A DNA stretch of 44,098 nt, from positions 1 to 44,098 of the forward strand of contig JACVCD010000028.1 in the NCBI GenBank assembly GCA_016742275.1, written 5' to 3'. Position numbers and translations under genes: made by a program. This document shows positions 42,056-44,098 of this stretch, piece by piece; within the stretch, counting starts at the first letter, position 1, and each line of letters starts with the position of its first letter. The notes beneath the pieces were generated by a model, which was given only the letters and a program-made list of their open reading frames with translations, was not told the DNA's origin and searched no databases. The DNA comes from Gemmatimonadaceae bacterium. Its GTDB lineage: Bacteria > Gemmatimonadota > Gemmatimonadetes > Gemmatimonadales > Gemmatimonadaceae.

Positions 42056-43804
42056 TTACTTGAAGCTCTGCACCAGACTGGTGATGGTGAGACTCCACCC
42101 GTCGACCAGTACGAACAGCAGCAGCTTGAATGGCAAGGAAATCATGGCCGGTGGTAGCATGAACATACCCATGCTCATGAGCACGGACGCCACGACCGCA
42201 TCGATGATGATGAACGGCAGGTAGATCGCAAAGCCGATCTGAAACGCGGTGCGCAATTCGCTTGCGACAAACGCCGACATCAGCACGTGTAGTGGCACAT
42301 CGTCCACGGTCGCAGGACGTGGCATGCGGCTCATTTCGACAAACGCTTTGAGATCCGATTCACGCGTCTGCTTGAGCATGAAGGTGCGCATCGGCTTGAC
42401 ACCTTCCTTCATCATGTCGACCTGCGTGATCTGACCATCGAGCCACGGCGTGATCGCGGTGCGATTCACTTCCACCAGCGTCGGGCCCATCACGAATCCG
42501 GTGAGCAGCAGCGCCATCGCAGCCAGCAACTGACCTGGCGGCGCGGTCTGCGTACCCATGGCCTGCTTGAGGAAGTTCAGCACGATCAGGATGCGGGTGA
42601 AACCCGTCATCATCAGGATCAACGTGGGGAGCAGCGTGAGCAGCCCCATCATGACCACAATGCCTACCGTGCCATTCAACCGCAGTCCTTCACCCGCACC
42701 TTCACCGCCAAGCTTTACATCCATCTGCGGCATGAGACGCATGATCGCATCGTCGGCCGCAATGGGTGCCGTGTTGGCGGTTGGCGCATTGCCATTCGGC
42801 GCTGCTGCCGGTGTGGTCACCATGTTGTTCGTCGCGCGCGTGCTGCTCGCACCCTGATTGGCAACGGCAGCACCATTGCCGGTGCGCAGAGCTGACGGAG
42901 CAGCAGTCTGCGCCGGAGTCTGTGCCGCGCGTGCCGGTGTTGCGGTGCGCACATTGTTGCGACCAGCAGCCGGCGGAACGAGAGGAGCTTTCGGAGCGGC
43001 AGGCGGCTGAAGCGCGGGCTGCGCGGCCGGTTGCGCTGCTGGCTGTTGAACGACGGGCAGCGTTGCGGCCGATTGCGTTGTGGTAGCACCAGCCGCCTGC
43101 GCACTGAGCGTCGGCGCAGCAATCAACACCATCGCACCAACCAACACGGCCAGGCGCGTGGCACCGCTCAATGACACACCGAGCATGTTGCGGAACGCGC
43201 GATCATTGCGATCAGCCGGCGCATACGTCGCCGAATCTCCTCGGCTCGTCGTCGGCGGCGCAGTCAGAAAGCGCGGGACCTCGGCGGGCTCGGAGAGAGA
43301 GAAGGGGCGGACCACAGGAACTGAAACGGCGGGAACGGCGGAAGCATTAACTGCGGAAGCGAAGTTGGCGGAAGCGGTGGGGACGGAAGCAACCGAGGCG
43401 AGTCCCATTTCCTTTTTCAGCGTGTTGCCGAGCATGGTGCCGAACTTCGTGCCGAGTGCGGTGGGCGAGAGCGGCGCAAATGCCGCCGTTGCCTCCGCAC
43501 TCGACTCGAGCGGCATGGGGATCGAGCTCGAGGCAATCACGCGCTGACGATCGGCTTCATCCAACTCGAACAGCGGACGCACACCACCATCACCAACACT
43601 CAACGCCATCACCTTTTCACCGACACGCACCACCGCCAATCCGGTCTTGGGACCGAGCGGCACGCGCTGCACGACTTCGACCGGTACTCGCGTCCGCGCG
43701 CGCAGCGGCCCGGCACCCCAGCGCTTGAGCGCCCAGAGGCACACAGCCCCGAGCCCCAGCACGAAGGCCAGCGCAGCAACGACTCCGAGTCCGGCGATGA
43801 ACAT
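42056..43804 (-). CDS. fliP: Fused flagellar export proteins FliO-FliP
   Basis: 582 residues in one uninterrupted frame. Residues 1-90 are FliO: a membrane helix (about 2-25), then VEVVQRVPLGPKTGLAVVRV and EKVMALSVGDGGVRPLFEL. Residues 91-205 are an Ala/Ser/Pro/Val-rich linker. Residues 207-236 look like a former FliP signal peptide (LAVLVGAMVLIAAPTLSAQA). A second Ala/Pro/Gln/Thr linker follows (about 237-350). Residues about 375-582 are FliP: GFTRILIVLNFLKQAMGTQT, PPGQLLAAMALLLTGFVMGP, VPLHVLMSAFVASELRTAFQ, IGFAIYLPFIIIDAVVASVL and the ending LVDGWSLTITSLVQSF. No ribosome site precedes internal Met207 (43186). FliO assists FliP assembly; FliP is a core of the export gate. I named it for the FliP part. 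Confidence 0.9.
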   Translation of the reverse strand: MFIAGLGVVAALAFVLGLGAVCLWALKRWGAGPLRARTRVPVEVVQRVPLGPKTGLAVVRVGEKVMALSVGDGGVRPLFELDEADRQRVIASSSIPMPLESSAEATAAFAPLSPTALGTKFGTMLGNTLKKEMGLASVASVPTASANFASAVNASAVPAVSVPVVRPFSLSEPAEVPRFLTAPPTTSRGDSATYAPADRNDRAFRNMLGVSLSGATRLAVLVGAMVLIAAPTLSAQAAGATTTQSAATLPVVQQPAAQPAAQPALQPPAAPKAPLVPPAAGRNNVRTATPARAAQTPAQTAAPSALRTGNGAAVANQGASSTRATNNMVTTPAAAPNGNAPTANTAPIAADDAIMRLMPQMDVKLGGEGAGEGLRLNGTVGIVVMMGLLTLLPTLILMMTGFTRILIVLNFLKQAMGTQTAPPGQLLAAMALLLTGFVMGPTLVEVNRTAITPWLDGQITQVDMMKEGVKPMRTFMLKQTRESDLKAFVEMSRMPRPATVDDVPLHVLMSAFVASELRTAFQIGFAIYLPFIIIDAVVASVLMSMGMFMLPPAMISLPFKLLLFVLVDGWSLTITSLVQSFK

Positions 43805-43866: not shown

Positions 43867-44067
43867 TTATGCCGCGTTGGCCGCGCCGGCAGCTGCCGGA
43901 TTCGCGAGCACACGCGTGATGCGCACACCGAAGTGTTCGCCGAGCACTACCACTTCACCTTCGGCGAAACGACGATCGCCCACGTAGATGTCGATCGGCT
44001 CACCAGCCAGGCGATCGAGCTGGATCACCGAGCCGCGACCGAGGCGCAGAATTTCCTGCACCGTCAT
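43867..44067 (-). CDS. fliN: Flagellar motor switch protein FliN, C-terminal part of the SpoA domain
   Basis: 66 residues from ATG 44067: MTVQEILRLGRGSVIQLDRL, AGEPIDIYVGDRRFAEGEVV, GEHFGVRITRVLAN and an Ala tail. This is the FliN SpoA domain minus its first strand. The codon directly before the ATG is TGA (44068-44070), and the nine codons before that (to the window edge) read PESIELGRT, which is exactly what normally precedes MTV in FliN. The reading frame is thus that of FliN throughout, interrupted by a stop. Either the short protein is made by reinitiation at TGAATG, or the gene carries a nonsense mutation. Confidence 0.8.
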   Translation of the reverse strand: MTVQEILRLGRGSVIQLDRLAGEPIDIYVGDRRFAEGEVVVLGEHFGVRITRVLANPAAAGAANAA

Positions 44068-44097
44068 TCACGTGCGACCGAGTTCGATCGACTCTGG
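44068..44097 (-). CDS. 3' end of the upstream fliN-frame reading frame (rest outside window)
   Basis: Nine codons, PESIELGRT, followed by TGA at 44070-44068. They match the end of the first SpoA strand of FliN (usual form VELGRT followed by R/K and M). The gene extends beyond the window, so its full nature (N-terminal FliN, or a FliM/FliY-like protein) cannot be seen. Confidence 0.5.
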   Translation of the reverse strand, partial: PESIELGRT

Positions 44098-44098
44098 C

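Follow-up and report, generated by a model that had tools for sequence, protein, structure and literature searches.

The fliN gene at the end of the DNA stretch analyzed here reads as if it were split by a TGA codon followed directly by an ATG. This apparent split is very probably a reading or assembly error at the edge of a contig, the gene itself being intact but misread. According to this explanation, the genome would possess an ordinary fliN located between fliM and fliO-fliP, the assembly would have broken inside it, and wrong letters would occupy the final few tens of bases in each of the two contigs that meet there, C10 and C15. The TGA and a neighboring Glu codon would be two of these errors, located at the C10 tip, and we infer that the correct letters give an open frame, as in the relatives. 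So understood, the split would have no bearing on flagellar biology. It does advise caution. Several contigs of this draft conflict, over their last tens of bases, with the contig that follows on from them, so a stop codon lying about 60 bases or less from the end of a contig should not be taken, without the reads, as a mutation or a recoding event.

The fliN fragment at the contig end

The window, i.e., the whole stretch of 44,098 nucleotides, was searched against its own genome, a 33-contig draft of 4.57 Mb from a Gemmatimonas-like bacterium (labelled G000), and corresponds to the entire contig C10 (positions 1-44098). Position 44098 is the final base of C10 in the locus list; therefore, the TGA sits 29-31 bases from the contig end. 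Reading the minus strand from this base confirmed the letters given in the first-pass annotation: P-E-S-I-E-L-G-R-T, the TGA, and an ATG (44067-44065) opening a frame of 66 codons that is closed by TAA and ends at 43867. The Glu codon of PESIELGRT lies 5-7 bases from the tip. The flagellar genes neighboring fliN have open frames. The coordinates of the features are shown in Table 1.

Table 1. Features at the right-hand end of the window.
Feature	Position	Strand	Evidence
fliN, 3' part with the SpoA/FliMN_C domain, truncated where the contig ends (44098)	43867..44098	-	PF01052 match; C-terminal 66 residues as in intact fliN of G001/G022
TGA codon (TCA on the + strand), probable contig-edge error	44068..44070	-	No stop in 40 distinct relatives; GGG at the tip of C15
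GAG (Glu) codon, second probable edge error	44092..44094	-	Val, Ile or Leu in all relatives
fliO-fliP (582 aa, single frame), first gene downstream of fliN	42056..43804	-	One ORF with Pfam matches to both FliO and FliP

The 66-residue piece has the FliMN_C domain (Pfam PF01052) that defines the FliN family, with a score of 70.4 bits against a curated cut-off of 23.8. The match covers positions 19-72 of the 73 in the profile, while that of an intact FliN from a relative starts at position 3. The 66 residues are 100% identical to the C-terminus of the intact proteins of G001 and G022. A genome search found two FliMN_C genes, this fliN and the fliM located at the start of C15, which ruled out a second copy of fliN elsewhere in the genome.

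In the adjoining gene, FliO and FliP are found in one frame with a long linker rich in Ala, Pro and Thr. The single frame is also present in G020 and G001 and, since it is shared by them, it seems to be a fixed fusion of the genus. A literature search on FliO-FliP fusions in the phylum found nothing relevant.

Relatives and the other half of the gene

The fliN genes of the relatives were collected as 59 loci from whole genomes and genome contigs, which reduced to 40 distinct sequences of the stretch of interest. In the relatives, fliN is an open frame of 141-143 codons. None of the 40 distinct sequences has a stop at the position of the TGA and none of the genes is split. The residue found there is Ser in 28, Thr in eight, Ala in two and Arg in two. 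At the position of the Glu codon, the 40 sequences have Val (29), Ile (nine) or Leu (two); Glu is absent from all of them, as is the middle base of the C10 codon. The first-pass annotation had assumed an Arg or Lys residue in place of the stop and a single CGA to TGA transition, and had asked if related genomes share the stop. They do not, and the proposed transition is not applicable because the nearest relatives have Ser, Thr or Ala and the only two with Arg (L077 and L085) are more distant. When the 75 fliN codons of C10 were compared with those of the two closest relatives, L003 (G022) and L005 (G001), only two protein differences were found against 23-25 silent ones. This ratio points to strong purifying selection on fliN that extends as far as the last ten codons before the C10 tip, and both protein differences, the TGA and the Glu, are located within those ten. 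For two random changes, the probability of both landing among the outermost 12 of the 78 codons is about 0.02, a value that is supportive but not decisive alone.

The N-terminal half of the gene was located on C15. The start of this contig, read on the minus strand, carries fliL and fliM, followed by a frame that remains open to the contig tip and begins with the FliN N-terminus typical of the genus (MNPAEIDALVASAQAAKAAGQPLSSLKEE...LTDFEQTMLGNTEVPIG). The order fliM, fliN, fliO-fliP is found in the relative G020, where it lies on a single contig, and in G001. In both, fliN and the end of fliM share four to a few bases, and the fliN on C15 likewise overlaps fliM. Since this gene order and this overlap are those of G020 and G001, C15 and C10 meet inside fliN, and the FliN N-terminal region that the first-pass annotation expected upstream is thus present. 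The C15 version of the codon, which is also garbled, is GGG and not a stop.

The two contig tips are in conflict. Beyond the residues EVPIG, the C15 frame continues as VLPGPPRPGASAPGPAGLS, while the relatives have MLLDLTLPVSIELGRTSMT. The last 57 bases of C15, compared in register with the fliN genes of the 40 distinct relatives, share 49% identity with them. The in-register alignment was the best of 25 shifts, those of 1-12 bases in either direction giving 23-39%. Shuffles that preserve the composition matched a mean of 16.5 of the 57 bases (29%; s.d. 2.5) compared to the 27.9 observed, a value that was reached in none of 5000. A common codon phase does not explain the match because shifts by whole codons gave 32% or less. 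The tip of C15 overlaps the last 36 bases of C10 with agreement at 20 of them; in the overlap, C15 has GGG at the TGA codon of C10 and CTG at its ATG. Neither tip fits the relatives, and both cannot be right. Most simply, the C15 tip would be a corrupted copy of fliN overlapping the last 36 bases of C10. Judged by itself, the overlap (20/36; z 3.7) is unremarkable when all tip pairs are considered, and the pairing of the two contigs was identified from the gene order and the register with the relatives rather than from the overlap score. The end of C10, with only two odd codons, is far less disturbed than that of C15.

Other contig tips of the draft

All 64 readable contig tips were compared pairwise. 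Conflicts were found in the overlaps of C4 and C17 (55 bases, 82% identity; L037 at the start of C4 with L048 at the start of C17), C32 and C28 (53 bases, 87% identity; L134 at the start of C32 with L144 at the end of C28), and C22 with both C23 and C24 (23-26 bases, 96% identity). The tips are not always wrong, since many of them, such as those of C24, C5 and C12, match the relatives to their end and the 53-base overlap of C5 and C24 has zero differences. Errors at the tips are thus frequent here, though not universal. One simple base-calling bias was considered as their source and rejected. The changes at the C17 tip are mostly to C and those at the C15 and C10 tips are mixed; on account of the latter, no single bias is claimed.

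Two other tips have unusual sequences. At the right-hand tip of C19 (L121:1401-1500), about 100 bases of Lon_C are joined in frame to an unrelated gene, in place of the sequence that all four compared relatives have at this location. No second occurrence of this Lon protease fragment was found anywhere in the assembly, and it is probably a chimera formed at the contig tip. At the right-hand tip of C29 (L145:1441-1500), G+C reaches 88% over the final 60 bases, which contain runs of C and of G and resemble the garbled tip of C15. The region is absent from the relatives.

Alternative explanations and comparison with known systems

If the stop were real, the strain would either be non-motile or have an unusual two-part FliN. 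In the former case, a true nonsense mutation together with a Val to Glu change would be present in the strain, or in a fraction of the population that was sequenced, and cells lacking the full FliN would probably be non-motile. In its favor are the stop found in the deposited assembly and the single copy of fliN; bacteria kept in laboratory culture also commonly lose their motility. However, this explanation requires two protein changes without precedent, both within 10 codons of the contig end, and no protein change in the remaining 65 codons. Furthermore, AGC and TCG, the commonest Ser codons in the relatives, would need three and two changes, respectively, to become TGA, while TCA, which would need one, was found only in one relative (L069), and the tip of C15 lacks the stop. 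A true nonsense mutation is therefore improbable. An even smaller likelihood is assigned to a mobile element or other repeat located inside fliN with C10 and C15 ending at its borders. Several ends in this draft are common to more than one contig, as expected of repeats (C13/C20/C21; C3/C6/C32; C7/C11), but no second copy was found in the genome for either the last 60 bases of C15 or the end of C10, and the C15 tip stays in register with fliN instead of switching to another sequence. A repeat at the break was rejected because both tips are single-copy.

The chances are similarly minimal for a FliN fixed in two pieces, where the ribosome would end at the TGA and restart at the adjoining ATG to make a short SpoA fragment, a coded version of the internal initiation known in SctQ. 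The TGAATG arrangement would permit reinitiation, and there is a precedent in the internal starts that release a SpoA domain from SctQ proteins, namely Spa33 (PMC8211105) and the short form of SpaO (PMC13059759). For such a mechanism, a split or internal start conserved among the relatives, with a ribosome-binding site, would be expected, as well as a complete SpoA domain in the short product. The ATG is conserved as Met in the relatives, but all 40 distinct sequences lack the stop, and the 16 bases ahead of the ATG contain no Shine-Dalgarno-like motif in any of them, a result that led us to reject an internal ribosome-binding site conserved in the genus. In addition, the 66-residue product begins inside the SpoA domain, at profile position 19 of 73, and lacks the first 18 positions, i.e., the first quarter of the domain. 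It is just as hard to credit that both pieces, made by termination and restart at a real stop, assemble into a working C-ring. Of the three options raised by the first-pass annotation, the sequencing or assembly error is the one favored here, and two-piece production is disfavored by the lack of the stop and of a Shine-Dalgarno-like motif in the relatives and by a product that starts inside the domain.

Like Spa33 and SpaO, the gene in this draft codes for a SpoA-domain protein and has an ATG inside the coding region. In Spa33, the full-length frame is open, and translation from the internal start yields another protein that has a SpoA domain of its own (PMC8211105); the short form of SpaO is a further SpoA product of an internal start (PMC13059759). 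In contrast, the ATG in the draft comes after a stop, and profile positions 1-18 would be missing from the product. The closest likeness within the genus is to the fliN of G001, G022 and G020, with which the gene shares the order fliM-fliN-fliO/P and from which it differs in having two odd codons at a contig tip where these relatives have an open frame.
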